From contig NZ_JANFMV010000001.1 of the NCBI RefSeq assembly GCF_024385575.1, positions 372,001-436,000 of the forward strand: a stretch of DNA of 64,000 bases, read 5' to 3'. This stretch comes from Rhizobium sp. NRK18. Lineage in GTDB: Bacteria; Pseudomonadota; Alphaproteobacteria; Rhizobiales; Rhizobiaceae. Both the position numbers and the translations under genes were made by a program. This document shows positions 46,675-64,000 of this stretch, in pieces; position 1 is the first letter of the stretch; every line of letters begins with the position of its first letter. The notes below the pieces were generated by a model, which saw nothing but the letters and a program-made list of their open reading frames with translations, was not told the origin of the DNA and searched no databases.

Positions 46675-46682
46675 CGTGAACC

Positions 46683-47249: not shown

Positions 47250-47366
47250 GCGGCTCTTCCCCCATCCATTATCGGCTTCCGCGATTGCGGATTGTCCTGA
47301 CTTCCCGCCGGTCCCGAAGCGCCCTGTCGGGTCGCCTCTGGGCCGGCGGTGTCGACGGCGGATGCC

Positions 47367-48353: not shown

Positions 48354-48433
48354 GGTTTCCCTCCTCCTAGGGTGCCGCCTTCGGCGGACAATTCCACCGG
48401 CAGGCGTCTCCTCCAAGACGTTAACTGCCAGTG

Positions 48434-48476
48434 GACAAACTATCTTGTCTGATAACTTCCGCAAAAATTACGGAAG
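48434..48476. promoter_or_regulatory. Inverted repeats upstream of the TRAP operon
   Basis: Two short inverted repeats lie in the gap before the DctP gene: GACAA-N6-TTGTC (48434-48449) and CTTCCG-N9-CGGAAG (48456-48476). They sit in an AT-richer stretch and could be operator sites of a GntR- or LacI-type regulator. No regulator gene is adjacent. Confidence 0.35.
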
Positions 48477-48572: not shown

Positions 48573-49589
48573 CTATCTGCTGATGACCACTTTCAATGCG
48601 TCACGGTGCGAATCCCAGTAGGGCAGCGCGGATTCCGCCTCGGTAAAGGGCACGACCCTGGAGACCAGCAGGTCTGGTGTGTCGCCCGCCGATTCGAGGT
48701 AGGAAATCACCGACCGGAAGTCCGCCATGGTGGCATTGCGGGAGCCCATGATGTCCAGTTCCTTCAGGTTGAAGAACTGCGTCTGATAGGTGACCGGCGC
48801 CTTGGAGTATCCGACATAGACCACGCGCCCGGCAAAGCAGGCGAGATCGACGGCCTGGGTGAAGGTCTGCGGCAGGCCGACGGCCTCGAAGGCGACATCG
48901 ACGCCGTCGCCATCCGTCAGGTCGTAGACGGCCTTGACCAGTTCCTCGGCGCCCGAGGGCAGGGCATGCGCGGCGCCGAAGCGCTTTGCCAATTCGCGCT
49001 TCTGTTCGCTCGGATCGATGGCGATGACCTCGGCACCGCGCGACGCAGCCGCGATGACCGCGCCCATGCCGATCATGCCGCAGCCGATGACGGCGACGCG
49101 GTCGCCCTTGGCGACCCGGCCGCGCTCGACGGCGTGAAAGCCCACGGACAGCGGCTCGACCAGCGCCAGATGCAGCGGCTTCAGGGTGTCGTTGAGAATG
49201 ACCTTTTCGGCCGGCAGGACGATCTCGTCGGCAAGACCGCCATTCTGCTGGACGCCCAGGGTCTTGTTGTAGCGGCAGGCGTTGAGGCGGCCCTTGCGGC
49301 AGGATGAGCAGTTGCCGCAATTGGTGTAGGGCATGACGATGACGCGCTTGCCGGGCTGGTAGGCCGGATCGACCGCTGCGCCCGTCTCGATGATCTCGCC
49401 ACCGATCTCGTGACCGGGAATGCGCGGCAGCTCGACGAGGGGATTGAGGCCTTTGAAGGTGTTGAGATCGCTGCCGCAGAGACCGACGTGCCGGACTGCG
49501 ATCCGCACCTGGCCCTCGCCCATGGGCGAGGGCTCAATATCATGGAAAACGGTCGTGTTTTCCCGTTCGATCATCAGCGCGCGCACCAT
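48573..49589 (-). CDS. Zinc-dependent alcohol dehydrogenase (sorbitol/idonate dehydrogenase-like)
   Basis: 338-aa medium-chain dehydrogenase. Catalytic zinc region CGSDLNTFKG and GHEIGGEIIE; structural zinc Cys cluster in NCGNCSSCRKGRLNAC; NAD(P)-binding GCGMIGMGAVIAA. Polyol or aldonate 5-dehydrogenases are the nearest groups. Two ATGs (49595 and 49589) are possible; the second has GGAGG at better spacing. It lies between the NicB-like gene and the TRAP operon, all leftward, so either could be its partner. Confidence 0.88.
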   Translation of the reverse strand: MVRALMIERENTTVFHDIEPSPMGEGQVRIAVRHVGLCGSDLNTFKGLNPLVELPRIPGHEIGGEIIETGAAVDPAYQPGKRVIVMPYTNCGNCSSCRKGRLNACRYNKTLGVQQNGGLADEIVLPAEKVILNDTLKPLHLALVEPLSVGFHAVERGRVAKGDRVAVIGCGMIGMGAVIAAASRGAEVIAIDPSEQKRELAKRFGAAHALPSGAEELVKAVYDLTDGDGVDVAFEAVGLPQTFTQAVDLACFAGRVVYVGYSKAPVTYQTQFFNLKELDIMGSRNATMADFRSVISYLESAGDTPDLLVSRVVPFTEAESALPYWDSHRDALKVVISR

Positions 49590-49678
49590 AGTCATACTCC
49601 TCCAACAGGTTCCGGCTCGTTGTCCGATGCATACGCCAAAGCCTTGCAGGAAGAAACGGCTTTTTCGGATGCAATCGT

Positions 49679-52600
49679 TCAGTGGCGGATTTCTCCAAGG
49701 GCGTGCTCGACCCCGCTCCAGGCGGGCGTCCCCGGTGCGAAGCGGGCGCGGACATAACGGGCAAGCTCGCCGACCTGCTTGTCCGTCAGCGTCTGCCCGA
49801 AGGCCGGCATCGACATGATTTCCTCATGCGTGCCACCGGTCAGGTTTGCCAGACGGGCGGGGGCCTCGGCGCCGTTGACGATCGCCTGCAGGACATTGGC
49901 CGGATTGTCGCTGACAACGGCGGAGCGAAGGGCGAGCGGCGTCAGCAGATCATTATTCTCGTGGCAGGACGCACAGGCCCCGTCGAAGATCCGTTTGCCG
50001 CGCGGTTCGGCAAGAGCAGCCGCTTCAGCCGCGGCGTCGCTGACCGCTATCACAGCGTTCGGATCGACGGCCCGGTGCGCGCCACTGTTCAAGGCGTTGA
50101 GATAAGTCGCCATGGCGCGGATATCGCTGTCCGGAAGGGGTGCCAGCGAGGCGACCACCTCGGCCATCGGTCCGCCGGCGCCGCCGTGATTTTCGGAATA
50201 GCCGTGGCGCAGATAGGCGTAGAGGTCGTCGGCGGACCAGCCGGAGGGCGATTTCGATGCGCCGGTCAGAGCCGGGGCCTCCCAGCCATCGGCAAATCCA
50301 CCGGCAAGATGGTAAGCACCTGTCTTTTCCGCCTGCAGGACATTGCGCTCCGTGTGGCAGGCGGAGCAGTGGCCGAGCGTCTCAACCAGATAGGCGCCAC
50401 GGTTCCATTCGGCGCTCATTGCCGCATTCGCCGTGAATGGCTCGGGCTTGCGGAAGAGCGCATTCCAGCCGGCCATCAGCGTGCGGATGTTGAAGGGGAA
50501 GGCGAGTGCCGTTTCCGGCGCTTTCTGTGGGCTCGGCGTGACGCTGGTCATGTAGGCATAGAGCGCCTGCATGTCGTTTTCCTCAACGCCGGCAAACGAC
50601 GTGTAGGGGTGTGCGGGATAGAGGAAATGACCGTCACGGCGGACGCCTTCGCGCATGGCCCGGGCGAAAGCGGGATAGGACCACGCGCCGATGCCGGCGT
50701 CCGGATCGGGCGTGATGTTGGGCGCATGGATATTGCCGAACGGCGTTTCGAAGGCCCTGCCGCCGGCATAGGCGGTTCCGTCCGCACCGACGTGACAGAC
50801 GTTGCAGGCGCCTGCGGCGGCGACCAGCCGGCCGCGCTCCAACGTCTCGGCGCTGTAGACGCCGCTCTGCGGCTTCGCCACCGGGGCGATCGAGGCGGGA
50901 AAGGGCGATACCCATGAAAGACCGGCGAGCGTGGCGGCTATGCCGGCAAACGACAGGCCGGCGAGCAGCCCCTTCTTTCCCGGCTTCTCCGACTGAGGTT
51001 TTGCTTGCGGTTCTCCGCCTTTCAGCGCGGCGAGCACCTTCTCCGGCGTCAGCGGCAATTCCCGGAAGCGGATGCCGGTTGCATCATAAACTGCGTTGCA
51101 GATGGCGGCGGCGCTGGGCACGGAGGCGGATTCGCCGACGCCAAGCGGCGGCTCGTTCCGGCGCGGCATGAGCAGCACGTCGATATCCGGCACGTCCGGG
51201 AAGGTGATCAGCGGATAGCTGCCCCAATCCTTCGACACGACCTTCGTGTTGTCGAACTCAACCTGCTCTTTCAGCGTGCGGCTGACGGACTGGACGATGT
51301 TGCCGTGGATCTGGTGCTTCACGCCGTCCGGATTGATCATCAGGCCGGAATCCTGGCCGCAGATGACCTTGGTGACGGCGATCTCGCCGGTCTTGCGGTT
51401 GACGGCGACATCGGTCACCCAGGCGGCCCAGGCTGCGGCGACGCCGGGGAAGGTGCCGTGGACATAGACGGCGTAGGCAAAGCCGCGGCCATAGAGCAGG
51501 TCACCTTCACCGCCCATCGTTCCCCAGGTCGTGCGCGGCGTCCAAGAGGCGCGTTCGGCAGTCGCCTTGATGAGATCGATGGCGCGCTCGTCCTTCATGT
51601 AGCGCAGGCGGTATTCGATCGGGTCAACCTTGGCGGCGGCGGCGAGCTCGTCGATGAAGGATTCGTGCGCATAGGTGTTCGGCATCGATGAAACGCCGCG
51701 AAACCATGAGGCGCGGGCGATCGGCGGCATGTCGTGGACGGTCACGCGCACGGCGCCGAAATCATAGGGCGGAATGGCGGTGCGATCGCCCATCTGCAGC
51801 GTATCGGCGACAGGCGCGAGACGGCCGGTCAGGATCAGCGCCAGCGTCGGCGCGGCGTTCGACGGATAGCGGCTCTCGAAGTCATAGGCCGCCGGTCCGC
51901 CTTCGATATCGAGCGCGCCGCGCACGTCCATCACCTGGGCAGTACCCTTCGGCTCCCATTCATGCTCCTGCTCGCGCGTCAGCTGCACCCTGACCGGGCG
52001 TCCGCAGGCGCGCGACAGGAGGGCCGCATCGGCGGTGACGTCGTCGGCGCAGTTGCGGCCGTAGCAGCCTGCCGCCTCCAGCCGCTCCACGGTGATGAAG
52101 CTTTCCGGCACATGGAGGAGCTGGGCAAGATCGCGACGCATCCAGAACGGGTTCTGGGTACCGGACCAGACCGTCAGGCCATCCTCGCGCCAGTCGGCGA
52201 CGGCGCAGGAGGGGCCGATCGAGGCATGCATCTGGTAGGGCCAGACATAGCTGCGGGTGAGCGGCTCGGCGGCACCTTCCAGCACGCGGTCGACATTGCC
52301 CTTGTCCGCCAGCTTGCGGGCAATGCCCGGATTCTGGTGGAGCGGGTCGTAGGGGTCGTTGAGATCGGGCCGGGCGGGTGGCTCCTTCCAGTCGACCTTG
52401 AGGCGCTTCATCGCCGCGATCGCCTGCTCTTCGCGCTCCGCCACCAGACCGACGAAATCGCCTTCGGAAAAGACGCCGACCATGCCGGGGATATCGGCGA
52501 CGGACCCTTCGTCGATCGCGATCAGGCTGTTGCCGACATGCGGGCCCTGGTCGTAGCCGGCATAGGGCGGGCGCACGACGCGGCCATGCAGCATGCCGGG

Positions 52601-53191
52601 CAGGCGCACATCGTGGACATAGACCCAGGCGCCGCGTGCCTTTGCCGGAATGTCGCTGCGCCGTTGCGGCGTACCGACCAGGCGATAGGCCGACACGGAC
52701 TTGACCGGCGCGTCGCGGTCGAGAGGGATATCGATATGCCGGCCGGTAATGATCTCGCCGAAGCTTATCGAGCGGTTGCCGTCCTTCTCGCGGATGATCC
52801 CGTCATCGAAGACCAGCGCGTCGGGGCTGATTTCCAGACGCTCGGACGCTTCCTTGAGCAGATGTCGCCTCGCGGTCGCGGCGGCGAAGCGAAGGGGCTT
52901 AGCGGTGATCTGGATCGTTTCCGAGGCAATGGTCGCGCCCTGATCCGGAACGGAGCCGGTGGATCCTAGCACCATTTCGACCCTGGCGAAGGCGAGGTCC
53001 AGCTCTTCGGCGACGATCTGGGCAAGCGCCGTCCGGATACCGGTACCGAGATCGACATGGCCGTTGAAGGCCGTCACCGCACCATGTCCATCGATGGCTA
53101 TGTAAATGTCGGACCCGTCACCGCCGGTGACGAGGAGCATGTCGTCGCTGGCGAACCATGCGCTTTTGGGGAGATCGCGGCTGTCGCTCAT
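49679..53191 (-). CDS. Molybdenum hydroxylase large subunit fused to three-heme cytochrome c (NicB-like)
   Basis: 1170-aa protein. Residues ~1-735 form a molybdopterin-binding large subunit of the isoquinoline 1-oxidoreductase/nicotinate dehydrogenase type (GHVDLGTGIRTALAQIVAEE, PLGVGESASVPSAAAICNAV). A membrane anchor (~750-775) follows. Three CxxCH heme sites come next: CNVCH ~797, CSACH ~943 and CASCH ~1073. This is the layout of NicB of Pseudomonas putida, which passes electrons from nicotinate hydroxylation to the respiratory chain. It overlaps the [2Fe-2S] subunit gene by 4 bases. The substrate is inferred, not shown. Confidence 0.9.
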   Translation of the reverse strand: MSDSRDLPKSAWFASDDMLLVTGGDGSDIYIAIDGHGAVTAFNGHVDLGTGIRTALAQIVAEELDLAFARVEMVLGSTGSVPDQGATIASETIQITAKPLRFAAATARRHLLKEASERLEISPDALVFDDGIIREKDGNRSISFGEIITGRHIDIPLDRDAPVKSVSAYRLVGTPQRRSDIPAKARGAWVYVHDVRLPGMLHGRVVRPPYAGYDQGPHVGNSLIAIDEGSVADIPGMVGVFSEGDFVGLVAEREEQAIAAMKRLKVDWKEPPARPDLNDPYDPLHQNPGIARKLADKGNVDRVLEGAAEPLTRSYVWPYQMHASIGPSCAVADWREDGLTVWSGTQNPFWMRRDLAQLLHVPESFITVERLEAAGCYGRNCADDVTADAALLSRACGRPVRVQLTREQEHEWEPKGTAQVMDVRGALDIEGGPAAYDFESRYPSNAAPTLALILTGRLAPVADTLQMGDRTAIPPYDFGAVRVTVHDMPPIARASWFRGVSSMPNTYAHESFIDELAAAAKVDPIEYRLRYMKDERAIDLIKATAERASWTPRTTWGTMGGEGDLLYGRGFAYAVYVHGTFPGVAAAWAAWVTDVAVNRKTGEIAVTKVICGQDSGLMINPDGVKHQIHGNIVQSVSRTLKEQVEFDNTKVVSKDWGSYPLITFPDVPDIDVLLMPRRNEPPLGVGESASVPSAAAICNAVYDATGIRFRELPLTPEKVLAALKGGEPQAKPQSEKPGKKGLLAGLSFAGIAATLAGLSWVSPFPASIAPVAKPQSGVYSAETLERGRLVAAAGACNVCHVGADGTAYAGGRAFETPFGNIHAPNITPDPDAGIGAWSYPAFARAMREGVRRDGHFLYPAHPYTSFAGVEENDMQALYAYMTSVTPSPQKAPETALAFPFNIRTLMAGWNALFRKPEPFTANAAMSAEWNRGAYLVETLGHCSACHTERNVLQAEKTGAYHLAGGFADGWEAPALTGASKSPSGWSADDLYAYLRHGYSENHGGAGGPMAEVVASLAPLPDSDIRAMATYLNALNSGAHRAVDPNAVIAVSDAAAEAAALAEPRGKRIFDGACASCHENNDLLTPLALRSAVVSDNPANVLQAIVNGAEAPARLANLTGGTHEEIMSMPAFGQTLTDKQVGELARYVRARFAPGTPAWSGVEHALGEIRH

Positions 53192-53685
53192 CCGGCGGTG
53201 CTTTCGATCGGTGACGGCTCACGCATCAGGCCGGCGGCCTTCCGGACGGCGGCCAGAATTTCCATATGTGTACCGCAACGACAGAGATTGTGTTTCAGCG
53301 CCGCGCGGATTTCGTCTTCGCTCGGCGTCGGACAGCGTTTGAGAAGCGCTGTTGCGGCAATGATCATGCCGTTGAGGCAATATCCGCACTGGGCAGCGTT
53401 TTCCTCGATGAAGGCCTGCTGGACGGGGTGCGGCCGCTCTTCATCGCCAAGGCCTTCTATGGTGGTGAAGGCGCGGCCTGCGGCATCGCGGATTTTCACG
53501 GTGCAGGAACGCACGGCGCGATCGCCTGCAAGCACCATGCAGGCGCCGCATTCGCCGAGCCCGCAGCCGAATTTCGGACCGTTGAGCTGGAGATCGTTGC
53601 GCAGGATATAGAGGAGCGGCGTTTCGGGGTTGGCAGAGACGGTGACGGTCCTGCCATTGACGGTGATCTCATGGGGAATGCTCAT
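53188..53685 (-). CDS. [2Fe-2S] subunit of molybdenum hydroxylase (NicA-like)
   Basis: 165-aa iron-sulfur subunit. The plant-type cluster uses Cys in KFGCGLGECGACMVL with a further Cys in VRSC. The second cluster uses CGYCLNGMI and LCRCGTHMEI, the two-cluster pattern of xanthine-dehydrogenase-family small subunits. Together with the large subunit downstream it hydroxylates an aromatic N-heterocycle next to the ring nitrogen; NicA of P. putida has this size and partner. It follows hydantoinase B by 32 bases. Confidence 0.93.
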   Translation of the reverse strand: MSIPHEITVNGRTVTVSANPETPLLYILRNDLQLNGPKFGCGLGECGACMVLAGDRAVRSCTVKIRDAAGRAFTTIEGLGDEERPHPVQQAFIEENAAQCGYCLNGMIIAATALLKRCPTPSEDEIRAALKHNLCRCGTHMEILAAVRKAAGLMREPSPIESTAG

Positions 53686-53717
53686 GGATCGGTCACCCTG
53701 TTTGCCCCTCTTGTCCG

Positions 53718-55463
53718 TTATGTTCGAAGATGCGTCCGCAGGGCTTCGGTTTTCTGCCAGTCTGGCATGCCGCCGTCGGCGATGACAACGCCGAACAGCG
53801 TGCCGGCTTCCTCTCGCGTGTAGCGTTCCAGCCGCACGTCCTCGGCAACCAGCGCAGGGTCGCGGGTCAGGGGATCGCCGTAGCCGCCGCCGCCGGGTGT
53901 GCGCACCCGCACCCGGTCGCCCGGCCGCATCGGAATGTCCTGCGCCTTCGACAGGTGTTCCGGCGTCACCGGCTTGCCGTCCTGCCAGACGGTAACCTGG
54001 TTGACCTTGCCGTCGTGTCCTCCGAGCGCACCCTGCGGGCCGAAACGGCCGTGATCCATGACGAAGCTCGCCGTCGCCTGGCCGCGCCGGAGTTCGACTT
54101 CGTAGTCGAGGCCGAAGCCGCCGCGGTGCTTGCCGGCGCCGCCGGAGCCTTCGTGCAGCGCGTAGCGGTGATAGAGCACCGGGAACTGCTGCTCCATGAT
54201 CTCGACCGGAGGCGCCTTGGAGATGCCGATGGTCGAGCAGCCATTGGCGATGCCGTCGCCTTCCGCATTGCCGCCATAGCCGCCGCCGGAAATCTGATAC
54301 ATGACGAAGTTGCGGCCGCGCTCGGGATCGTATCCGCCGAGGCCGAAATTGCCGGACGAGCCGGCAGGGGCGGCGGTGACGCGGTCGGGCAGTGCCTCGA
54401 CGAGTGCGGCGAAGACCGCTTCGGCGATGCGCTGCGAGACTTCGGCGGCGCAGCCTGAAACGGGGCGCGGATATCGGGCATCGAGGAAGGTGCCTTCCGG
54501 GCGAACGATGCTGAGCGGCTCGAAGGCGCCGGCCGAAATCGGCACATCTGGGAAGATGTGGCGCATGGCCAGATAGACGGAGGAATGCGTCGTCGCCAGC
54601 ACCGAGTTCATCGGCCCCATGCAGGGCGCGGACGAGCCGGCGAAATCGAAGGTCAGCTCGCCATCCTTGGCCGTGACGGTGAGCCTGATCTCCAGTGGTT
54701 CGTTGATCACGCCGTCGCTGTCGACATAGGCGGTCGAGGTGTAGACGCCATCGGGGATGAGGCGGATGTTGGCGCGCATTTGCTCGGCGGCGCGGCGCTT
54801 CAGTTCGCCGATCGCCTCGGCCACGGTGTCATCGCCGTAACGGTCGAGAATCCGGTTCAATCGCTTTTCGCCGACGAGAAGAGCGGCGGCCTGCGCCTTG
54901 ACGTCGCCGATGCGCTGTTCGGCGACACGGATGTTGGAACAGATGATGGCGTAGATTTCCTTGTCGAGCACGCCCTTCTTGAAGAGACGGACCGGCGGAA
55001 GGCGCAGGCCTTCCTGCTCGACAGCGGTCGCGGAGGCGGAGAAGCCGCCCGGCACCGCGCCGCCGGTATCGGGCCAGTGGCCGGTGTTCGACAGCCAGCA
55101 GAAGATCTTGCCGTCGCGATAATAGGGCATGGCGAAGCGCACATCCATCAGATGCGTACCGCCGAGATAGGGGTCATTGACGATATAGATGTCGCCCGGC
55201 TGCGGTTCGGCCGCGTCGCCCGAGGCGATCATCTCGATCAGCGTGCGGGTGGAATACTGCATGGTGCCGACGAAGACCGGCAGGCCGCCGGCCCCTTGCG
55301 CGATCAGTGCGCCGTCTTCGGCCGAATAGATTCCGTCGGAGCGGTCGTTCGCCTCGGCGATGACCGGAGAGAAGGCCGCGCGCGAGAAGGTCAGGTCCAT
55401 CTCGTCGCAGACCTGCTGCAGGCCGTTCTGGATGACGGAGAGCGTGATCGGATCGATGGTCAT
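53718..55463 (-). CDS. Hydantoinase B / 5-oxoprolinase-type subunit
   Basis: 581-aa HyuB-family subunit that, with HyuA, performs ATP-dependent opening of cyclic amides (hydantoins, N-methylhydantoin, 5-oxoproline). Family text: FSRAAFSPVIAEANDRSDGI, VNDPYLGGTHLMD, WPDTGGAVPGGFS and the C-terminal RVRTPGGGGYGDP. It is full length. The ATG overlaps the hyuA stop by 4 bases. Located ahead of the NicA/NicB-like genes, it suggests a ring-opening step for a lactam produced after hydroxylation or reduction of the ring (inference). Confidence 0.93.
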   Translation of the reverse strand: MTIDPITLSVIQNGLQQVCDEMDLTFSRAAFSPVIAEANDRSDGIYSAEDGALIAQGAGGLPVFVGTMQYSTRTLIEMIASGDAAEPQPGDIYIVNDPYLGGTHLMDVRFAMPYYRDGKIFCWLSNTGHWPDTGGAVPGGFSASATAVEQEGLRLPPVRLFKKGVLDKEIYAIICSNIRVAEQRIGDVKAQAAALLVGEKRLNRILDRYGDDTVAEAIGELKRRAAEQMRANIRLIPDGVYTSTAYVDSDGVINEPLEIRLTVTAKDGELTFDFAGSSAPCMGPMNSVLATTHSSVYLAMRHIFPDVPISAGAFEPLSIVRPEGTFLDARYPRPVSGCAAEVSQRIAEAVFAALVEALPDRVTAAPAGSSGNFGLGGYDPERGRNFVMYQISGGGYGGNAEGDGIANGCSTIGISKAPPVEIMEQQFPVLYHRYALHEGSGGAGKHRGGFGLDYEVELRRGQATASFVMDHGRFGPQGALGGHDGKVNQVTVWQDGKPVTPEHLSKAQDIPMRPGDRVRVRTPGGGGYGDPLTRDPALVAEDVRLERYTREEAGTLFGVVIADGGMPDWQKTEALRTHLRT

Positions 55464-57568
55464 GCGAGCGCTCCCTTGAGGGTGATGATGATGTTGCCGT
55501 CGCGGTCCTGCGCGGCGGTGTCGCCGGGTTCGACGACGATCGTCGTGTCCATCTGTTCGATGATGGCGGGGCCGGTGACGGTGGCGACTGCCGGCAGATG
55601 GTCGCGCCAGTAGACCGGCGTCGTCACCCAGCCGTCGAACCAGACGGCGCGTTCGCCGGTCTTTGCCTCGGCGAGCGTCGCCTTGCGGCCCGACGCGTCG
55701 ATCAGCAGGGACAGGTCAATGTCCTTGCGGCGGCCGATGACCGAGGTGTTGACGTTGACGAGGCTCGGGCGGATTTCCGGGAGCTCGACGTGGAAGCGGT
55801 TGAAATAGGCGTCGGCGAAGCGCTGGCGCAGCTCCTCGCGGCTCGGCGTCGGCGTGTCCAGCGGCACGCGCAGGAGGTGGGTCTGGCCGATGAACTGCAT
55901 GTCGACCGAATAGATCTCCTTCAGTTCCTCGATCTCGACCGGCTCCTTGGCAATCAGCCGGCGTCCTTCTTCGCCCTGATGGGCAAACAGCGCATGGACG
56001 GCATCCATGTCGGCGAGATCGAGCGGCTTGTTGACGGTGTTGACGAAGTCGTGCCGGAGATCGGCGACGACGCAGCCGAGTGCATTGGTGATGCCCGGCC
56101 GGGAGGGACAAAGGACGCGCGGCACGCCGAGTTCGCGGGCGATTGCCACGGCATGCAGCGGGCCGGCGCCACCGAAGGCGAAGAGGGCGTAGTCGCGCGG
56201 ATCTTCGCCGAGGCTGACCGAGACCATGCGCACGGCGCCGGCCATCTTGGCGTTGGCGATCTGCAGCACGGCGGCGGCGGCACCTGTCGCATCGAGGCCG
56301 AGCGGCACGCCGAGGTCGCGTTCGAAGATCGCGCGGATGTCGTCGAGGGAGATTTTCGAGGAAACGGAGTTGAGCTTGTCCGGGTTCATGCGCCCGAGCA
56401 GAAGGTTGGCGTCCGAAATGGTCGGTCGCGTGCCGCCGCGGCCGTAACAGATCGGGCCGGGCGTGGCGCCGGCGCTTTCCGGTCCGACCTGCAGGAGGCC
56501 TGCGGCCGTCACCTTGGCGATCGAGCCGCCGCCCGCGCCGACGGTGCGCACATCGACCATCGGCACGTGGATCGGCATGGCGTATTCGATCTCGATCTCG
56601 TTGGAGACCGCCGGTTCCGCGCCCTTGATGAGCGCCACATCGGTCGAGGTGCCGCCCATGTCATAGGTCAGGAGATTGGTGATGCCGGCGCGCCGTCCGG
56701 TATAGGCTGCGGCCATGACGCCCGATGCCGGGCCGGACATGACGGTCTTGGCGGCTTCGTTGGAGACGTGCCGGGCCGAGACCATGCCGCCGTTGCCGTT
56801 CATCACCAGAACGTCGTTGCGATAGCCGCGCTCGGCGAGCTTGTCGGCCAGACGCTCGACATAGCGGCGCAGCAGTGGCTGGACAGAGGCGTTGACGGCC
56901 GCCGTCACGCCGCGTTCGAATTCGCGGCTTTCGGAGAGCAGGGCATGGCCCATGGTGATGTTGCCGTTCGGCCAGATGTCCGCGGCGATCTCGGCGGCAT
57001 GCAGCTCATGGGCGGGATTGGCGTAGGCATGCAGGAAATGGATGACGAGGGATTCGCAGCCCTTGGCGATCAGCGCCTGAAGAGCGGATTTCAGCGCGTC
57101 CTCATCGAGCGGGGTGACGACATTGCCGCCGGCGTCCATGCGCTCGGGGATCTCGAGGCGCAGGTCGCGCGGGATAATGGGCTGGAAGTCGCCCTTCATG
57201 CCGTAGGGATTGGGACGGGTGCGGCGGCCAAGTTCGAGGACGTCGCGGAAGCCGGTCGTCGTGATGAGGCCGGTCTTGGCGAGCGTGCGTTCCAGAACCG
57301 CGTTCGTCGTCGTCGTCGTGCCGTGGATGATGAGGTCGAGCGTATGGAGATCCGCGCCGGCCGCTTCCAGCGCGTTCAGCACGCCGCCGGCCTGATTGTC
57401 GAGCGTGGTCGGGGTCTTGGCGAGGCGAACCGTGCGGGTGGCGCTGTCGACAAGGACGAGGTCGGTAAAAGTGCCTCCGACGTCGATGCCGGCGACCTGG
57501 GACTGGACCGTTGGCGCCAAATCCACCGGTTTGCCCGCGTGATCGGCGGCCAGCACATCGTCCTGCAT
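55460..57568 (-). CDS. Hydantoinase A / 5-oxoprolinase-type subunit
   Basis: 702-aa HyuA-family ATPase subunit with actin-like folds: N-terminal phosphate loop GIDVGGTFTDLVLVD, then IIHGTTTTTNAVLERT and LTYDMGGTSTDVALI. It works with HyuB. The ATG at 57568 has GGGG six bases upstream; an ATG four codons earlier (57580) lacks a ribosome site and lies 7 bases from an operator-like repeat. It is the first gene of the leftward unit hyuA-hyuB-nicA-nicB-like, divergent from the reductase operon. Confidence 0.93.
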   Translation of the reverse strand: MQDDVLAADHAGKPVDLAPTVQSQVAGIDVGGTFTDLVLVDSATRTVRLAKTPTTLDNQAGGVLNALEAAGADLHTLDLIIHGTTTTTNAVLERTLAKTGLITTTGFRDVLELGRRTRPNPYGMKGDFQPIIPRDLRLEIPERMDAGGNVVTPLDEDALKSALQALIAKGCESLVIHFLHAYANPAHELHAAEIAADIWPNGNITMGHALLSESREFERGVTAAVNASVQPLLRRYVERLADKLAERGYRNDVLVMNGNGGMVSARHVSNEAAKTVMSGPASGVMAAAYTGRRAGITNLLTYDMGGTSTDVALIKGAEPAVSNEIEIEYAMPIHVPMVDVRTVGAGGGSIAKVTAAGLLQVGPESAGATPGPICYGRGGTRPTISDANLLLGRMNPDKLNSVSSKISLDDIRAIFERDLGVPLGLDATGAAAAVLQIANAKMAGAVRMVSVSLGEDPRDYALFAFGGAGPLHAVAIARELGVPRVLCPSRPGITNALGCVVADLRHDFVNTVNKPLDLADMDAVHALFAHQGEEGRRLIAKEPVEIEELKEIYSVDMQFIGQTHLLRVPLDTPTPSREELRQRFADAYFNRFHVELPEIRPSLVNVNTSVIGRRKDIDLSLLIDASGRKATLAEAKTGERAVWFDGWVTTPVYWRDHLPAVATVTGPAIIEQMDTTIVVEPGDTAAQDRDGNIIITLKGALA

Positions 57569-57586
57569 CGTGAACCCCATTTATCA

Positions 57587-57600
57587 TTTGTATACGAACA
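57587..57600. promoter_or_regulatory. GntR-type operator, copy 1 (hyuA side)
   Basis: TTTGTATACGAACA contains the palindromic core GTATAC within TNGTATACNA, the shape bound by FadR-group GntR regulators. It is repeated almost exactly at 57703-57717. Confidence 0.65.
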
Positions 57601-57702
57601 GACTATGAATGAAGCTGGACGACTGTCAAGCGTCACATTCGTCGTCGGAAACAATTTCTCCTCTGCGGAAAACAGACCGTTGACAGGTCTTCAAGTTAGA
57701 TG

Positions 57703-57717
57703 TTTGTATACGAACGA
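57703..57717. promoter_or_regulatory. GntR-type operator, copy 2 (reductase side)
   Basis: TTTGTATACGAACGA, in the same orientation as copy 1 and 116 bases away, about 29 bases before the GTG of the reductase gene. The two sites, one by each divergent start, suggest one regulator controls both operons. No GntR gene lies in the window. Confidence 0.65.
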
Positions 57718-57745
57718 ATGATGTTCAGGCGCATGGGAGCCGAAT

Positions 57746-59257
57746 GTGACGACTGCCCCCGATGTCAAGGCCGAGAAGATACGCTGCGATGCCTGTCCGG
57801 TGATGTGCTACATCGCCGACGGCCGCTCCGGAGCCTGCGACCGCTACGCCAATGAAGGCGGGCAGCTGATCCGTCTCGATCCCCTCGTTATCCTCGAAAA
57901 CCGTTCGGCAAGCGGCGGCGATGTCGTGCCCTTCCTGGAGCGCGACTGGGACGGCGACGTGGTGGGTGCCTCGAACAGTTTCGTGACTGCCGTCGGTGCC
58001 GGTACGACCTATCCCGATTACAAGCCGGCGCCCTTCATCGTCTCGTCAGAGGTCGATGGCGCCGACATGATTACCGTCGTCACCGAAGGCATCTTCTCTT
58101 ATTGCGGCGTGAAGGTGAAGATCGACACCGATCGCCACCTTGGTCACGAATGCGCCACCGTCCGCGTCGACGGCGAGCCTGTCGGTCATGTGACGACGGC
58201 GGAATATGGCAGCCAGATGCTGTCGCTCGGCGGCGTCAACCACTTGACGGGCGGTTCCAAGAAGGAAGGTCGCGTCACCTGCGATACGCTCTTGAAGCTC
58301 TGTAACGGCGAGGCGGTCGAAGTTTCGATCGACGAGGGTGCGACGCTCATTGTGGAGGCCGGCAAATCGCCGATCGTCAATGGCGTGGCCGAGAGCCGCA
58401 TGCGTGTCGGCTGCGGATCGGCGACGGTCGGCATGTTCGCGGCGCAATGGATGGGGTTGGTCGATGAAGTCGTCGTCGTCGATGATCACATCACCGGCGT
58501 CATGTCCGAGCATCAGGCCGGCAAGGTCATCGGCTGGCAGCCGACCGGCATCAAGATCAACGGTCGGCGTTCGACGCCCGGCCGATACTTTCAGGTGGCC
58601 GAACCCGGCACCGGCTGGGGCGGCACCGATCTCTCCGATCCGCTCACCATTCTCGGCAAGTTCGATCCCAAGGCGGCAAAGCCCGGCCAGTCGCTGCTGA
58701 TGGTCTCGACCACCGGCGAGCACGCCGCCTATTACGAACTCGACGAACACCTCTGTCCCATCGAAATGGAGATGCCGGAGCGGCTTCTCCCCTCGGTCAG
58801 GCGGATCGAGGAAAACTGTGAGCCGGCAATGACGTCCGTCCTGTTCATGGCGGGCGCCGGCGGATCGCTGCGCGCCGGTGCGACGCAAAACCCAGTTGGC
58901 CTCACGCGCTCGGTCCAGCAGGCGCTGACCTACGTCTCCTGCGGCGGCGCACCCGCCTATGTCTGGCCCGGCGGCGGTATTACGCTGATGGTCGACGTGA
59001 CGCGCATGCCGAAGAACTCCTTCGGCTACGTCCCGACCCCGGCGCTGGTCGCCCCGATCGAATTCACCATGCGCGCTGACGACTACGCAGCGCTTGGCGG
59101 ACACATGGACTACGTCATGCCGCTGATGGAAGCGCTTGGCGGCAAGACCGGGCGGCAGAACGACCATCTCCTGAAGGGCCGCCGCAACCTCTCCGCCAGC
59201 GGCGACAATCCCTGGCCGCCGCGCGCCAAACCCGCGCCTCAGAAGAAGGTGAGCTGA
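57746..59257 (+). CDS. 6-hydroxynicotinate reductase-like iron-sulfur protein
   Basis: 503-aa protein. The N-terminus carries a [4Fe-4S]-type Cys set (Cys14, 17, 21, 31 in CDACPVMCYIADGRSGAC). Later glycine-rich segments (RVGCGSATVGM, CGGAPAYVWPGGGITLM) belong to the family annotated as 6-hydroxynicotinate reductase, the ferredoxin-dependent enzyme that reduces 6-hydroxynicotinate to the tetrahydro-oxo form in Eubacterium barkeri and is proposed in Azorhizobium. The GTG start has GGGAG upstream. RAGAT (376-380) resembles the ApbE flavin-attachment motif. First gene of the rightward operon. Confidence 0.8.
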   Translation: MTTAPDVKAEKIRCDACPVMCYIADGRSGACDRYANEGGQLIRLDPLVILENRSASGGDVVPFLERDWDGDVVGASNSFVTAVGAGTTYPDYKPAPFIVSSEVDGADMITVVTEGIFSYCGVKVKIDTDRHLGHECATVRVDGEPVGHVTTAEYGSQMLSLGGVNHLTGGSKKEGRVTCDTLLKLCNGEAVEVSIDEGATLIVEAGKSPIVNGVAESRMRVGCGSATVGMFAAQWMGLVDEVVVVDDHITGVMSEHQAGKVIGWQPTGIKINGRRSTPGRYFQVAEPGTGWGGTDLSDPLTILGKFDPKAAKPGQSLLMVSTTGEHAAYYELDEHLCPIEMEMPERLLPSVRRIEENCEPAMTSVLFMAGAGGSLRAGATQNPVGLTRSVQQALTYVSCGGAPAYVWPGGGITLMVDVTRMPKNSFGYVPTPALVAPIEFTMRADDYAALGGHMDYVMPLMEALGGKTGRQNDHLLKGRRNLSASGDNPWPPRAKPAPQKKVS

Positions 59258-59259
59258 GA

Positions 59260-60141
59260 ATGGTGGCGGCAGGCGGCAAATCGGGTGCGATCGCGGTTCT
59301 GCTGCCGGACAGCCGCCGACTGCATCTTCAGCACGGACCGATAGATCTCGTCATCGAGGCCGTCGGATCGCCCGCCGATGTCCGGCAGGCCTACCAGCAG
59401 GCGCGGGCCGCATTCGATCCCCTGCTTGCCGATCTCGTTCTCGAATTGCCACGGTTGCGCTCCGCGAGCGGAGCGGAGCCCCATGGCGTGGTCGCCAGCC
59501 GTATGGCAGCGGCCGTTGCGCCCTATGCACCGGAATTCATCACGCCGATGGCGGCGGTGGCTGGCAGTGTTGCCGATCGCATTCTCGCGGCGATGCGGTT
59601 CGGAACCCGGCTCGAGCGCGCCTATGTCAACAATGGCGGTGACATCGCCATCCATCTTTCCGAAGGATCGTTCCGCATCCGCATCTGCGACAATCCCGAA
59701 ACCGGGGAGGCCGGCGGCACTGTCGAAATCCGGCCTGAAGACGGTATCGGCGGCATTGCCACCAGCGGCTGGCGCGGACGTTCGCATTCCCTTGGCATCG
59801 CCGACGCGGTGACCGTGCTGGCAAAAAGCGCCGCCGAGGCGGACGCCGCCGCGACCATGATCGCCAACAAGGTCGATCTGCCGCTGTCCGCCAAGGTAAC
59901 GCGCGTACCGGCCCGCGATCTTTCCCACGACAGCGACCTCGGCGATCGTCTGGTGACGACAGGCGTTGCCCCTCTTGATCGCGATGAAGTCGAAGAAGCC
60001 CTTTCGTCCGGCGAGCGGGCTGCCTATGGTTACCGTCAGCGCGGCCTGATCCGCGCCGCCTATCTCAGTCTTTCCGGCGAGCGCCGTACAGTGGATGCCG
60101 CGCCGAACCACAATAATCCCAGGGAGATCATCCATGCCTAA
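59260..60141 (+). CDS. UPF0280-family (ApbE-like) protein
   Basis: 293-aa protein of UPF0280, a family with an ApbE-like fold. Conserved stretches are PMAAVAGSVADRIL, YVNNGGDIAIHLS, GIATSGWRGRSHSLG and ADAVTVLAKSAAEADAAATM; the last three mirror ApbE flavin-transferase motifs (NxGGD, SG, D..T). The ATG follows the reductase stop by 2 bases with AAGGTGAG upstream, so the two are coupled. A role in flavin or other cofactor attachment to the reductase is an attractive inference. It overlaps the next gene by 8 bases. Confidence 0.85.
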   Translation: MVAAGGKSGAIAVLLPDSRRLHLQHGPIDLVIEAVGSPADVRQAYQQARAAFDPLLADLVLELPRLRSASGAEPHGVVASRMAAAVAPYAPEFITPMAAVAGSVADRILAAMRFGTRLERAYVNNGGDIAIHLSEGSFRIRICDNPETGEAGGTVEIRPEDGIGGIATSGWRGRSHSLGIADAVTVLAKSAAEADAAATMIANKVDLPLSAKVTRVPARDLSHDSDLGDRLVTTGVAPLDRDEVEEALSSGERAAYGYRQRGLIRAAYLSLSGERRTVDAAPNHNNPREIIHA

Positions 60142-60718
60142 GCCCGTCGTCCGCAAGAAGGCGATCATCGTCGAGGAAATCTTTCACGAGGGCGGTCCCG
60201 TTCCGGGGCGTACGCTGAAGCGTGCCGCCTGCCTCGCCGTGATCAAGAATCCCTTTGCAGGCCAGTATGTCGAGGAGATTGCCGGCTTCATGGACGACCT
60301 CAATCCTCTCGGGCTGGAAATGGCGCAGGACCTCGTCAATGCGCTGGGCGGCGACGCCTCCGTCATCGAAGGCTATGGCAAGGGCGCGATCGTCGGCTCT
60401 GCCGGTGAAATCGAGCACGGCGCGCTCTGGCATGTGCCGGGCGGCTATGCGATGCGCGAAATCCTGCCGAACTCGGCGGCGATCGTTCCGTCGACCAAGA
60501 AGGTCGGCGGTCCGGGCGCACGTCTCGACGTGCCGGTGACCCATACCAATGCCTCCTATGTCCGCTCGCATTTCGACGCCATGGAAGTCGGGTTGAACGA
60601 TTCTCCCAAGGCCGACGAAATCCTGCTGGCGCTGGTCATGACCACGGGTGCGCGCATTCACGAACGCGTCGGCGGCCTCAAGCACGCAGACGTCAAGGGG
60701 GAGGATGGCCTGCGGTGA
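60134..60718 (+). CDS. AA_synth-family protein (PF06684), copy 1
   Basis: 194-aa protein of the family labelled amino acid synthesis (formerly DUF1185), whose reaction is not established. Conserved core: RAACLAVIKNPFAGQYVEE, IEGYGKGAIVGSAGEIEHGA, AIVPSTKKVGGPGARLDVPV and HTNASYVRSHFDAMEV. The start at 60134 overlaps the UPF0280 gene and has GGGAG upstream. A paralogue follows directly. In this operon a hydrolytic or tautomerising step on the reduced ring is possible (inference only). Confidence 0.85.
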   Translation: MPKPVVRKKAIIVEEIFHEGGPVPGRTLKRAACLAVIKNPFAGQYVEEIAGFMDDLNPLGLEMAQDLVNALGGDASVIEGYGKGAIVGSAGEIEHGALWHVPGGYAMREILPNSAAIVPSTKKVGGPGARLDVPVTHTNASYVRSHFDAMEVGLNDSPKADEILLALVMTTGARIHERVGGLKHADVKGEDGLR

Positions 60719-61299
60719 TTGTGAAGATCCGCAAGATCGTTACCGTTCTTGAGGATGTGGCCTTCGAAATGGGCCAGCCGGTGACGCCGCATGCGCGCCG
60801 CGCGGTTGCGGCTGCCGTCATCGCCAACCCTTATGCCGGGCGCTATTCCGCCGATCTCGACCAACTGGTCGCGATCGGTGAGGAGCTCGGCGCATTGCTC
60901 GGTGAGAAATGCGTCGCCGCGCTCGGGATTTCGCCGGCGGAGGCGCAAGGCTACGGCAAGGCGGCTCTCGTCGGTGAGAACGGCGAGCTGGAACATGCCG
61001 CCGCCCTCCTGCATCCGAAGATGGGCGCCCCCTTGCGCAAGGCGGTCGAAAAGGGTGCCGCGCTGGTGCCGTCGAACAAGAAGATGGGCGCTCCCGGCCA
61101 GCCGCTCGACGTCCCGCTCGGCCACAAGGATGCGGCCTATGTCCGCTCGCATTTCGACGGCATGGAAATCCGTGTCGCCGACGCGCCGCGGGCCAATGAA
61201 ATACTGGTCGCCATCGCGGTCACGGCGGGCGGGCGCCCGCTGCCGCGAGTCGGTGGACTGAAGCATGAAGACGTAATTGGTGAAGACGGGTTGAGATAG
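60715..61299 (+). CDS. AA_synth-family protein (PF06684), copy 2
   Basis: 194-aa paralogue of the preceding gene with the same motifs (AQGYGKAALVGENGELEHAA, ALVPSNKKMGAPGQPLDVPL, KDAAYVRSHFDGMEIR) and the same ending HxDVxGEDGLR pattern. It starts with a GTG overlapping the previous stop. Equal length, overlap and divergence suggest an old tandem duplication whose products may form a heteromer. Confidence 0.85.
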   Translation: MIVKIRKIVTVLEDVAFEMGQPVTPHARRAVAAAVIANPYAGRYSADLDQLVAIGEELGALLGEKCVAALGISPAEAQGYGKAALVGENGELEHAAALLHPKMGAPLRKAVEKGAALVPSNKKMGAPGQPLDVPLGHKDAAYVRSHFDGMEIRVADAPRANEILVAIAVTAGGRPLPRVGGLKHEDVIGEDGLR

Positions 61300-61329
61300 A
61301 ACGAAGCGCTCGAACAAGGAGACGGATCC

Positions 61330-62397
61330 ATGGAGTTTGTCAGAAATGCCTGGTACGTGGCCGGTTGGTCGAAGGAAATCGATGCGGAACTCCGCCGGTT
61401 CACAATCCTTGACGAACACATCGTCATGTTCCGCAAATCCGACGGCTCGGTTGTTGCCCTGGAGGACCGCTGTCCCCATCGCCTTCTGCCGCTTTCCAAG
61501 GGCAAGCGTATCGGCGACACCGTCCAGTGCGGCTATCACGGGCTGACCTTCGACTGTTCGGGGAAATGCGTGCGGGTGCCGGGACAGAGCAACCTGCCGG
61601 CTTCCGCCTATGTCGAAGCCTTTCCGATCGTCGAGAAGAACGACATCGTCTGGATCTGGATGGGGGACAAGGACAAGGCGAATGCCGACGACGTGTTCGA
61701 CATGCCGGAATTCTACGACCCGAGCTGGCACGCCCATCAGGGCGAGGCGCTGCATCTCAAATCCAACTATCTGAATGTCGCTGAAAACCTGGTCGATCCG
61801 GCACATGTGAGCTTCGTGCATCCGACGACGCTCGGCAGCGCGGCCTCCGAGAACGTGCCGGTCCATGTCGTGACCGAAGGCAAGGCGATCGTCGCCTGGC
61901 GCTGGATCCGCGATGCCGAGCCGGTTGGCTTCTTCAAGAAGTTCGGCGGGTTTTCCGGCAATGTCGATCGCTGGCACTACTATTATCTCTACACGCCGTG
62001 CACGGCGGTCATCGATTTCGGCTCGGCGCCGGTGGAAGATCAGATCGCCGAGGACGAGCGCGACAAGGGCGTGCGCATCTTTGCGCTGCATTTCATGACG
62101 CCGGTGACCAGGAACTACACCATCGACCGGTGGATGCATCTGCGCAACCGGGCCGTCGGTGACGAAGAGGCGAGCGCGGCGATGGACGCCATGTTCCGGA
62201 TCGCCTTTAATGAAGACAAGGAGATCCTGGAAGCAGTCCAGGCGGAAGAGGAACGCCCCCTGAAACGCCGTCCGATCCGCATTGCCATCGACAAGGGACC
62301 GATGGTCTACCGCAAGCGGATCACCGAACTTCTGGAAAAGGAGCGGACACACGATATCGCGTCGGATCCGACACCGGCCTTTATCTATCACGACTAA
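61330..62397 (+). CDS. Rieske non-heme iron oxygenase (vanillate O-demethylase-type)
   Basis: 355-aa oxygenase alpha subunit. The Rieske cluster is CPHRLLPLSKG with CGYHGLTFD (C-x-H ... C-x2-H), and the mononuclear iron site is NLVDPAHVSFVHPTT (D-x3-H-x4-H pattern). This size and layout match VanA-like demethylases and phthalate-type oxygenases that work with a separate reductase, which is not in the window. CAAGGAGACGGATCC precedes the ATG. It closes the reductase operon before the ABC importer. Confidence 0.9.
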   Translation: MEFVRNAWYVAGWSKEIDAELRRFTILDEHIVMFRKSDGSVVALEDRCPHRLLPLSKGKRIGDTVQCGYHGLTFDCSGKCVRVPGQSNLPASAYVEAFPIVEKNDIVWIWMGDKDKANADDVFDMPEFYDPSWHAHQGEALHLKSNYLNVAENLVDPAHVSFVHPTTLGSAASENVPVHVVTEGKAIVAWRWIRDAEPVGFFKKFGGFSGNVDRWHYYYLYTPCTAVIDFGSAPVEDQIAEDERDKGVRIFALHFMTPVTRNYTIDRWMHLRNRAVGDEEASAAMDAMFRIAFNEDKEILEAVQAEEERPLKRRPIRIAIDKGPMVYRKRITELLEKERTHDIASDPTPAFIYHD

Positions 62398-62464
62398 ATC
62401 CGTAACAATCCGGCGCAGACCGGAATCACGAAAAGGCGAAAACAAGCCGTCAGAGGAGAACGAC

Positions 62465-63664
62465 ATGAAATTATTCAATAAATTGGCCGCAACAGGTCTG
62501 GCGGTGCTCGCCCTGTCGACGGCAGCATTGGCCGAAGACACGATCAAGATCGGCGAAATCAATCATTACAAGCGCATGGCGGCATTTGCCGAGCCCTACA
62601 AGCAGGGCATCGAGCTGGCGCTGAAGGAAATCAACGATGGCGGCGGCGTGCTCGGCAAGAAGCTCGAATTCGTCTACCGCGACGATGAAGGCAATCCCGG
62701 CAACGCCGTCAAGATCGCCGAAGAGCTTATGACGCGTGACGGCACCGTCATGCTGACAGGCTCGATCCTCTCGAATGTCGGCCTGGCGCTCTCCGCGCTC
62801 GCCGGCGAAAAGCACTACGTCTATCTCGCGTCCGAGCCGCTGGCCGACGAGCTGATCTGGAAGAATGGCAACCCCTACACCTTCCGCCTGCGCGCCTCGA
62901 CCTGGGTTCAGGCCGGCATGCTGGCCGAAGAAGCCGCCAAGACGGACGCCAAGCGCTATGCGACGATCGCGCCGAACTATGCCTATGGTACGGCCGCCGT
63001 CGAAGCCTTCAAGACGCAGCTGAAGAAGCTGAAGCCGGATGTCGAGTTCGTCGCCGAACAGTGGCCGGCACTCTTCAAGATCGACGCCGGTGCTGAAGTG
63101 CAGGCGATCGAGAAGGCCAAGCCCGATGCGATCTACAATGTCGAATTCGGGACCGACCTCGCCAAGTTCGTCCGCGAGGGCAATACGCGCGGGCTGTTCG
63201 AAGGCCGCAAGGTCTACGGTCTCCTGACCGGCGAGCCGGAATATCTCGATCCGCTCGGCGAAGAGGCGCCGGAAGGCTGGTTCGTGACCGGTTATCCCTG
63301 GTACGACATTCAGGATGGTCCGGGCAAAGCTTTCGTCGATGAATACAAGGCCGCTTACGGCGACGGGCCGAAGATCGGCAGCCTTGTCGGCTACATGACC
63401 GCCAAGAGCATTGCCGCACTTCTGACGAAAGCGGGCTCCACCGATACGCCGGCATTGCTTGAAGCGTTCAAGGATCTGAAGGTCGAAACGCCGGTCGGCG
63501 AAATCACCTATCGCGACATCGACCACCAGTCGACGATGGGTGCCTATGTCGGCACGACGGCCGTCAAGGATGGCAAGGGCGTGATGGTTGACTGGTCCTA
63601 CAAGGACCCGACCCCCTACATGCCGAGCGATGACGAAGTCAAAGCCATGCGTCCGGCCAACTGA
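62465..63664 (+). CDS. Branched-chain-amino-acid-type ABC transporter binding protein
   Basis: 399-aa periplasmic binding protein (LivJ-type, type I fold). The ATG at 62465 follows AGAGGAGAACGAC and the signal peptide ends TAALA (residue ~22). The mature protein begins EDTIKIGEINHYKR; GIELALKEINDGGGVLGKKLEF is the family hallmark. Such systems often carry aromatic and heterocyclic acids. It is followed by a livH-type permease gene, and its neighbours suggest an N-heterocycle or aromatic substrate (inference). Confidence 0.92.
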   Translation: MKLFNKLAATGLAVLALSTAALAEDTIKIGEINHYKRMAAFAEPYKQGIELALKEINDGGGVLGKKLEFVYRDDEGNPGNAVKIAEELMTRDGTVMLTGSILSNVGLALSALAGEKHYVYLASEPLADELIWKNGNPYTFRLRASTWVQAGMLAEEAAKTDAKRYATIAPNYAYGTAAVEAFKTQLKKLKPDVEFVAEQWPALFKIDAGAEVQAIEKAKPDAIYNVEFGTDLAKFVREGNTRGLFEGRKVYGLLTGEPEYLDPLGEEAPEGWFVTGYPWYDIQDGPGKAFVDEYKAAYGDGPKIGSLVGYMTAKSIAALLTKAGSTDTPALLEAFKDLKVETPVGEITYRDIDHQSTMGAYVGTTAVKDGKGVMVDWSYKDPTPYMPSDDEVKAMRPAN

Positions 63665-63681
63665 TCACGGTTGACGATCGA

Positions 63682-63710
63682 TCCGGCCGGTTTGCCACGA
63701 ACCGGCCGGA
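63682..63710 (+). other. Intergenic hairpin between binding protein and LivH-type permease
   Basis: Perfect 11-bp inverted repeat, TCCGGCCGGTT (63682-63692) with AACCGGCCGGA (63700-63710), 7-base loop, no T-run. Same position and style as the hairpin at 4245-4269 in the sugar transporter operon. Confidence 0.7.
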
Positions 63711-63743
63711 GCCAGCCCCTTCTCAGACATCGAGCGGACATCT

Positions 63744-64000
63744 ATGGGACTTCTGGTAGCGCAGCTCCTGACCGGGCTTGCAAACGCGGCGGCGCTTTTT
63801 CTCGTTGCCTCCGGGTTGTCACTGATCTTCGGTGTGACCCGCATCGTCAACTTCGCGCACGGCTCCTTCTACATGCTCGGAGCCTTTATCGGCGTCACGC
63901 TGATGCAGATCCTGCCCGGAGCCGTCGGCTTCTGGGGCTCGATCGTGCTGTCTGCGATCGCGGTCGGGCTGATCGGCGTGGTCGTGGAAATCCTGGTGCT
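63744..64000 (+). CDS. Branched-chain-amino-acid-type ABC permease LivH, N-terminal part (3' end outside window)
   Basis: The frame from ATG 63744 runs open to the window edge (about 85 residues). It begins MGLLVAQLLTGLANAAALFL and continues with the LivH hallmark GLSLIFGVTRIVNFAHGSFY. Hydrophobic throughout. It forms the membrane channel for the binding protein just upstream; the remaining subunits (livM, livG, livF types) would lie to the right. Confidence 0.93.
   Translation, partial: MGLLVAQLLTGLANAAALFLVASGLSLIFGVTRIVNFAHGSFYMLGAFIGVTLMQILPGAVGFWGSIVLSAIAVGLIGVVVEILV

Follow-up and report, generated by a model that had tools for sequence, protein, structure and literature searches.

An ATP-dependent hydantoinase-type pair as the most likely ring opener in a nicotinate-type reductive gene cluster of Rhizobium sp. 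NRK18

Which enzyme opens the ring in a nicotinate-type gene cluster that lacks an enamidase? The question is raised by a locus of Rhizobium sp. NRK18, which lies in a stretch of 64,000 nucleotides (contig NZ_JANFMV010000001.1, positions 372,001 to 436,000; hereafter the window) and extends about 4.6 kb beyond its end. Two operons diverge from a 165-base intergenic gap (57581-57745). The minus-strand operon encodes, in order, HyuA (55460..57580; Hydantoinase_A, 286 bits) and HyuB (53718..55463; Hydantoinase_B, 543 bits), the ATP-binding and the metal-dependent hydrolysing subunits of an ATP-dependent lactamase, followed by NicA-like and NicB-like subunits of a molybdenum hydroxylase. The plus-strand operon begins with Hnr, a 6-hydroxynicotinate-reductase-like Fe-S enzyme with a GTG start (57746..59257), and continues with a UPF0280 protein, two AA_synth proteins, a Rieske oxygenase, a Liv-type binding protein and a fused LivHM permease. 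The first-pass annotation of this DNA had read these genes as a candidate pathway for a nicotinate-like heterocycle; all the genes it named are intact open reading frames of the families it gave, and the set is a version of the known reductive 6-hydroxynicotinate cluster. Both pathway and cluster are already known, and the version found here is a variant with HyuAB probably at the ring-opening step. We consider it likely that the locus is a single regulon with which an aerobe uses a pyridine carboxylate of the nicotinate type, with HyuAB opening the ring in place of enamidase.

A scan of named genomes returned at least 582 confirmed Hnr relatives, of which the best 80 were taken as loci, with stretches of up to 10 kb. 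UPF0280 was present in 77 of these stretches and AA_synth in 75, so the gene set is not a chance assembly; the Rieske oxygenase was found in 26, HyuA in 15 and HyuB in 14. Conservation of the two operons together, on which the first-pass annotation had made its pathway depend, holds in part: HyuA adjoins Hnr in that definite subset of 15, and the molybdenum hydroxylase recurs widely (NicB matched in 66 loci, NicA in 64), often as a different, xanthine-dehydrogenase-like type (roughly 25-49% identity). In NRK18, too, a molybdenum hydroxylase stands beside a 6-hydroxynicotinate-reductase-like protein, the mark of an Hnr-type reductive nicotinate cluster. Another gene family is found in 34 of the 80 loci, none of which belongs to the 15 that hold HyuA. 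Its representative matches PDB entry 2VUN (ENAMIDASE) with 351 bits and is thus an enamidase relative, in keeping with the first-pass view of enamidase as the known ring opener, which the available text of PMC9304392 states for Eubacterium barkeri. The whole NRK18 genome, rated 100% complete and holding HyuA, gave no enamidase match at E 0.001, with a query that finds matches in 36 of 50 related genomes.

We then compared the two ring-opening candidates across whole genomes, using one enamidase (from locus L048) and the NRK18 HyuA as queries. Among the genomes of 50 hand-picked loci of the best 80 (enamidase at E 1e-30, HyuA at E 1e-200), 36 had enamidase, 15 HyuA, one both and none neither; the genome with both is a Rhizobium rhizogenes (L085), in which the enamidase is divergent (54% identical) and lies on a separate contig. 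The second set comprised the 68 Hnr-holding genomes, NRK18 included, among 385 of the class, and overlaps the first by at least one genome (G038 and G327, identical coordinates). At identity cuts of at least 60% for enamidase and 55% for HyuA, chosen after the gaps in the values were visible, 29 genomes had enamidase, 37 HyuA, none both and two neither, these last being G276 and G363, 70% and 86% complete. Finally, 26 Hnr-bearing plasmids, several of them near-copies (12 from Sulfitobacter), divided into 16 with enamidase and 10 with HyuA, with none lacking both and none carrying both, in that none of the 16 enamidase plasmids was among the best 30 of 490 HyuA records; each plasmid HyuA lies within 8 kb of Hnr and is 60.9-82.4% identical to that of NRK18. 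Annotated examples include Pseudosulfitobacter pSMR1-2 and Sagittula E-37 (HyuAB with Rieske), Sulfitobacter pontiacus (amidohydrolase with Rieske) and Pleomorphomonas pSM30-1, which holds Hnr, two unnamed proteins, HyuA and HyuB annotated as acetophenone carboxylase, and NicR. Because HyuA and enamidase exclude each other in three sets, HyuAB appears to substitute for enamidase, as the first-pass annotation had thought possible, and its most likely role is ATP-driven opening of the same ring. We found no earlier description of this exchange in the literature searched.

The exchange appears to have happened more than once. On a quick Hnr tree with 122 rows (17 unlabelled rows left out, 2 short ones skipped, two long rows flagged), the ring-opener label changes 9 times, against an average of 39 in shuffles, and 5 of the changes are forced by starred branches; therefore the swap recurred. 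NRK18 falls into a HyuAB clade of 14 rows, itself part of a 28-row group in which the remaining 14 rows are enamidase (support 89), and R. rhizogenes (3 rows) and the pair L115 and L116 form separate HyuAB groups in the same half of the tree. For the 109 rows with genome-level data, 56 have enamidase only, 50 HyuA only, one both and two neither, with 8 changes for enamidase and 10 for HyuA. The Rieske gene and the hydroxylase type also vary, with 10 and 7 changes respectively, and no association with HyuA was seen on the tree, on which such pairs are few. As hydroxylase type, Rieske and importer subfamily all occur alongside both ring openers, it is mainly the ring-opening step that changed.

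The sequences of HyuA and HyuB fit an active ATP-dependent lactamase. HyuA carries the ATP motifs DVGGTFTD, DMGGT and GATPGP, and HyuB residues D43, H104, D107 and H129 correspond to the CapB metal ligands Asp41, His99, Asp102 and His124 and are kept in 28 of 28 aligned rows, NRK18 included. The presumed substrate, 1,4,5,6-tetrahydro-6-oxonicotinate (THON), is a six-membered lactam. In CapAB-type lactamases, ATP-dependent activation of the lactam is attributed to the A subunit and its hydrolysis to the B subunit (available portion of PMC8453981), and OplAB, of the same family as HyuAB, strongly hydrolyses the six-membered delta-valerolactam in vitro (available portion of PMC11033972).

Regulation probably joins the two operons. 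The predicted operator TTTGTATACGAAC occurs twice exactly within the 165-base gap, at 57587..57599 and 57703..57715 (both on the plus strand), and allowing up to two mismatches gave no other match in the window (0.24 expected; 1 of 100 shuffles had as many). A third predicted operator, one mismatch from the palindrome, lies at 67727-67740 in window numbering continued past the end, in the divergent promoter between a MarR regulator (67110-67556, minus) and a ferredoxin-NADP reductase (67835-68635, plus); 0.09 were expected in the locus and 17 of 200 shuffles had one. Of 137 loci, 42 have an operator-like site in the 260 bases upstream of Hnr when up to three mismatches are allowed (20 shuffle runs: mean 3.8, maximum 7), and 32 have one at up to two mismatches (mean 0.15, maximum 1). 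Bradyrhizobium enamidase loci are among them; the same search inside Hnr gave 2 of 137. One predicted operator would tie both operons and the regulator into a single regulon. The MarR protein matches structures 6pcp and 6pco (E 1.5e-26 and 96 bits to 6pcp), which we take, from the residue numbers, to be BpsR. BpsR contacts 6-hydroxynicotinate through Tyr15, His23, Arg26 and His32, according to the part of PMC6837509 available. The NRK18 protein has Tyr, Tyr, Arg and His at these positions, so that three of the four contacts are kept, those to the carboxylate, ring nitrogen and hydroxyl, and His23 is replaced by Tyr. Across 55 cluster MarR proteins, Tyr15 and Arg26 are kept in all 55, His32 in 42 and His23 in 8.

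The likely fate of the product was examined through the genes near Hnr. In R. rhizogenes L085, HyuB is flanked by an acyl-CoA (coenzyme A) dehydrogenase whose nearest solved structures identify it as a glutaryl-CoA dehydrogenase (716 bits to 3GNC). Among 141 stretches around Hnr, 7 contain a relative at 50% identity or more, four with HyuAB (L081, L083, L085, L140), two with enamidase (L037, L054) and one unlabelled (L044); its presence near both types of opener, in these few loci, fits one common product. NRK18 has a 70% identical gene elsewhere in its genome. The enamidase of E. barkeri converts THON to 2-formylglutarate (available text of PMC9304392), and the route of Azorhizobium caulinodans continues by glutarate (PMC3511419, in the part available). 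On a Sulfitobacter pontiacus plasmid (L195, 1-4809), an acyl-CoA dehydrogenase, an enoyl-CoA hydratase, a 3-hydroxyacyl-CoA dehydrogenase and an AMP-binding protein adjoin an enamidase-type cluster, a gene set that would suit processing of the product by a CoA route.

In order to rationalise the cluster on the molecular level, we assembled these elements into one scheme. Gene content, the exclusion of HyuA and enamidase, the operator, the catalytic motifs, the ApbE relation of UPF0280 described below and the location of glutaryl-CoA dehydrogenase were computed; from them we infer every reaction, every substrate and the ferredoxin link. The Liv-type importer would bring in the substrate, from which the Rieske enzyme, where present, would strip an N-methyl group, most likely converting trigonelline to nicotinate and formaldehyde. 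NicAB would then hydroxylate C6 and pass electrons to its haems. Hnr would reduce 6-hydroxynicotinate to THON with electrons from ferredoxin and the ferredoxin-NADP reductase, using a flavin that UPF0280 would have attached. HyuA would activate the lactim oxygen with ATP and HyuB would hydrolyse the activated lactam at its metal site; the resulting enamine would decay to 2-formylglutarate and ammonia, and the product would proceed through glutarate and glutaryl-CoA. Paying for ring opening with ATP would render the step irreversible, a possible advantage when substrate is scarce.

The proposed peripheral step rests on the Rieske oxygenase (61330..62397, plus; Rieske and VanA_C domains), which has both the Rieske and the D..H....H mononuclear-iron motifs and whose best PDB match is dicamba O-demethylase (147.6 bits), an enzyme that takes a methyl group off an aromatic acid. 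Trigonelline is proposed because this closest solved relative demethylates an aromatic acid. In the 23 loci other than NRK18 with a Rieske protein of at least 50% identity, the binding protein is 63-82% identical to that of NRK18; of the 44 loci without it, 41 have values of 53-62%; L118 (45% Rieske), L014 and L012 deviate, and the genomes of the last two gave no match to the NRK18 Rieske protein at E 1e-40. This pairing suggests that the Rieske enzyme catalyses an initial, peripheral reaction on the compound brought in by the importer, possibly N-demethylation of trigonelline. A second VanA-type Rieske oxygenase, 44% identical, lies elsewhere in the NRK18 genome (G000:C1:4016827-4017840).

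The UPF0280 protein (59260..60141, plus; NCBIfam PRK04334.1-2, 353.9 bits with a cut-off of 290) matched no Pfam family, PF02424 (ApbE) included. Comparison with hhalign gave 94.8% probability against ApbE profiles (E 5.4e-8, 223 columns), 0.1-1.1% for 12 control families and 1.3% against a single ApbE sequence, pointing to a remote ApbE relative. Alhapel and colleagues (2006) are said to have found a covalent flavin on the E. barkeri Hnr and, reportedly, to have noted genes for the first three pathway enzymes in nine Proteobacteria. If the Hnr flavin is indeed covalent, UPF0280, which adjoins Hnr, would be its natural flavin transferase, and perhaps attaches it. We know of no role assigned so far to this HyuAB subfamily or to UPF0280, and a testable function can now be proposed for both.

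The wider proposal, that enamidase was repeatedly exchanged for HyuAB at one step, with nearly every Hnr genome or plasmid having one or the other, and that the exchange is here joined to a Rieske N-demethylase and an importer as a trigonelline-to-glutarate unit with UPF0280 as dedicated Hnr flavin transferase, is offered tentatively; taken as a whole it is possible rather than probable. Were it right, one pathway step would be filled by two unrelated, mutually exclusive enzymes. With Hnr in 68 of 385 class genomes and on 26 plasmid records, such clusters may constitute a widespread route for plant and algal pyridine compounds.

Several observations weigh against HyuAB as the substitute for enamidase, beginning with the late choice of the identity cuts. 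Without them, enamidase is found in 32 and HyuA in 45 of the 68 class genomes, the extra matches being 35-39% (enamidase) and 41-46% (HyuA) identical, and the weaker enamidase-like proteins occur in three HyuA genomes (G154, G339, G114). Of the 37 HyuA genomes, 22 have the gene within 10 kb of Hnr and 15 do not, 10 of these having it on another contig, and a HyuA of 59-62% identity is found on seven plasmids without Hnr, six from Sinorhizobium medicae and one from Rhizobium. Six independent pairs lay on starred branches, with HyuA opposite in about five and the same in none (median p 0.0625); therefore the phylogeny-corrected test alone is not significant, though the pattern is clear-cut. HyuA and HyuB reach 490 and 322 bits in the caprolactamase NCBIfam equivalogs, below the cut-off of 1000, and the predicted Hnr structure is poor and uninformative (predicted local distance difference test score 64.8). 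Lastly, the ring-nitrogen contact His32 is Asn in 13 of the 55 MarR proteins, all from HyuAB loci (e.g., L007 and L012) and not in NRK18, which retains His; together with the Tyr at the fourth contact in NRK18, this means that the inducer may differ.

The same substitution in MarR is among the points favouring an unlikely alternative, in which HyuAB clusters serve another pyridine (homarine or picolinate, an N-methyl-pyridone) or another lactam that needs HyuAB, and the exclusion mirrors a change of substrate. One half of the Hnr tree, of 41 rows, is mostly HyuAB (33 rows), its HyuAB loci often having one or no AA_synth in the stretch, and the homarine pathway (Nat Microbiol 2026, as cited in the available part of PMC13390433) may overlap with part of the Hnr cluster family. 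However, importer, Rieske and hydroxylase types do not track the ring opener, the NRK18 HyuAB clade is grouped with enamidase rows, the NRK18 MarR retains the carboxylate, ring-nitrogen and hydroxyl contacts, and glutaryl-CoA dehydrogenase lies near both cluster types. Furthermore, the NRK18 NicB shares 57-58% identity with its counterpart in loci of Bradyrhizobium, a genus whose cluster is assigned to nicotinate by homology in the available text of PMC3511419. A different lactam or pyridine, which the first-pass annotation had also offered, is less likely than a nicotinate derivative.

More improbable still is a reading that makes HyuAB an unrelated hydantoinase or carboxylase and leaves ring opening to some undetected enzyme. 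The HyuA family is large, includes carboxylases and has paralogues in several of these genomes, but the NRK18 HyuA belongs to a distinct subfamily (56-83% identity within it, mostly 41-46% to paralogues), and the exclusion of enamidase in three sets speaks against a bystander. A nearby amidohydrolase (window 77202-78416), considered as a hidden enamidase, is NagA-like (219 bits, against just 22 for enamidase) and was matched in no other locus. The AA_synth (DUF1185) pair (60134..60718, with its start codon at 60134, and 60715..61299, both plus; PF06684, 227.7 and 240.5 bits), which the first-pass annotation had named as the alternative opener, is a most improbable candidate, alone or with HyuAB, and probably does not open the ring: in fetched stretches of at least 12 kb, to which the counts refer, 65 of 68 enamidase loci have it (45 with two copies, 20 with a single one, 3 with none) and 14 of 47 HyuAB loci lack it (17 have two copies, 16 a single one).

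The remaining genes complete the picture of HyuAB in a nicotinate-type cluster. The NicB-like molybdopterin subunit (49679..53191, minus; MoCoBD_1/2 and Cytochrom_C) is fused to a tri-haem cytochrome c, with 1170 residues and CXXCH sites at 796, 942 and 1073, and shares 54-63% identity with the NicB proteins encoded close to Hnr in Bosea, Bradyrhizobium, Azorhizobium and R. rhizogenes; the NicA-like [2Fe-2S] subunit (53188..53685, minus; Fer2, Fer2_2) is 58-70% identical across loci with the NicAB type. Hnr itself reached no Pfam or NCBIfam cut-off and owes its name to the protein search, in which all 8000 scored candidates were relatives and several were called 6-hydroxynicotinate reductase by their source, and to plasmid annotation; Cys14, 17, 21 and 31 are invariant in 32 aligned sequences. 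The Liv-type binding protein (62465..63664, plus; Peripla_BP_6) starts with an ATG at 62465 followed by a stretch that by eye resembles a signal peptide, and the LivH-LivM fusion (63744..65606, of which 63744..64000 in the window, plus; BPD_transp_2 in two stretches) is followed past the window end by LivG and LivF, beyond which lie the regulator and the ferredoxin-NADP reductase. In four alphaproteobacterial loci (L009, L010, L021, L023; two named Puniceispirillum), three extra conserved genes (c31-c33) follow UPF0280, and AA_synth lies farther away or outside the stretch.

At the other end, the first-pass annotation had begun the cluster at 48573. The genes from NicB to the Liv importer stay in it, and a Zn-alcohol dehydrogenase (48573-49595), matched in just 1 of 80 related loci at 27% identity, is dropped together with the TRAP genes; DctP, DctQ and DctM (45400-48464, minus) apparently form a separate operon with the dehydrogenase, downstream of NicB. 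Also nearby are an asparagine synthase with a glutamine amidotransferase domain (43464-45239, minus) and, right after the cluster, another Liv-type ABC importer, accompanied by a short-chain dehydrogenase (window 68702-74908; L004:5203-11409).

Compared with known systems, HyuAB shares its two subunits, ATP motifs and four metal ligands with CapAB of Pseudomonas jessenii and OplAB of Pseudomonas putida, whose gene neighbours differ from those found here; CapB has vicinal pocket cysteines, whereas the NRK18 HyuB has no CC. UPF0280 shares IATSG and ADA.AT motifs with the ApbE flavin transferase at about 19% identity. The Rieske oxygenase has the domain family and the Rieske and 2-His-1-carboxylate motifs of the VanA/DdmC demethylases and travels with an importer subfamily. 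The regulator is related to the MarR-type BpsR of Bordetella, which binds 6-hydroxynicotinate, and has Tyr, Arg and His contacts in common with it, the BpsR His23 being Tyr. With the reductive nicotinate clusters of A. caulinodans, Bradyrhizobium and Bradyrhizobiaceae SG-6C, whose pathway is that of E. barkeri, the NRK18 cluster shares the molybdenum hydroxylase, Hnr, conserved unknown proteins and an importer (PMC3511419, in the part available), and the Bradyrhizobium loci have the same type of operator upstream of Hnr. In contrast to those clusters, it has no enamidase, HyuAB stands in its place and a Rieske oxygenase is added.

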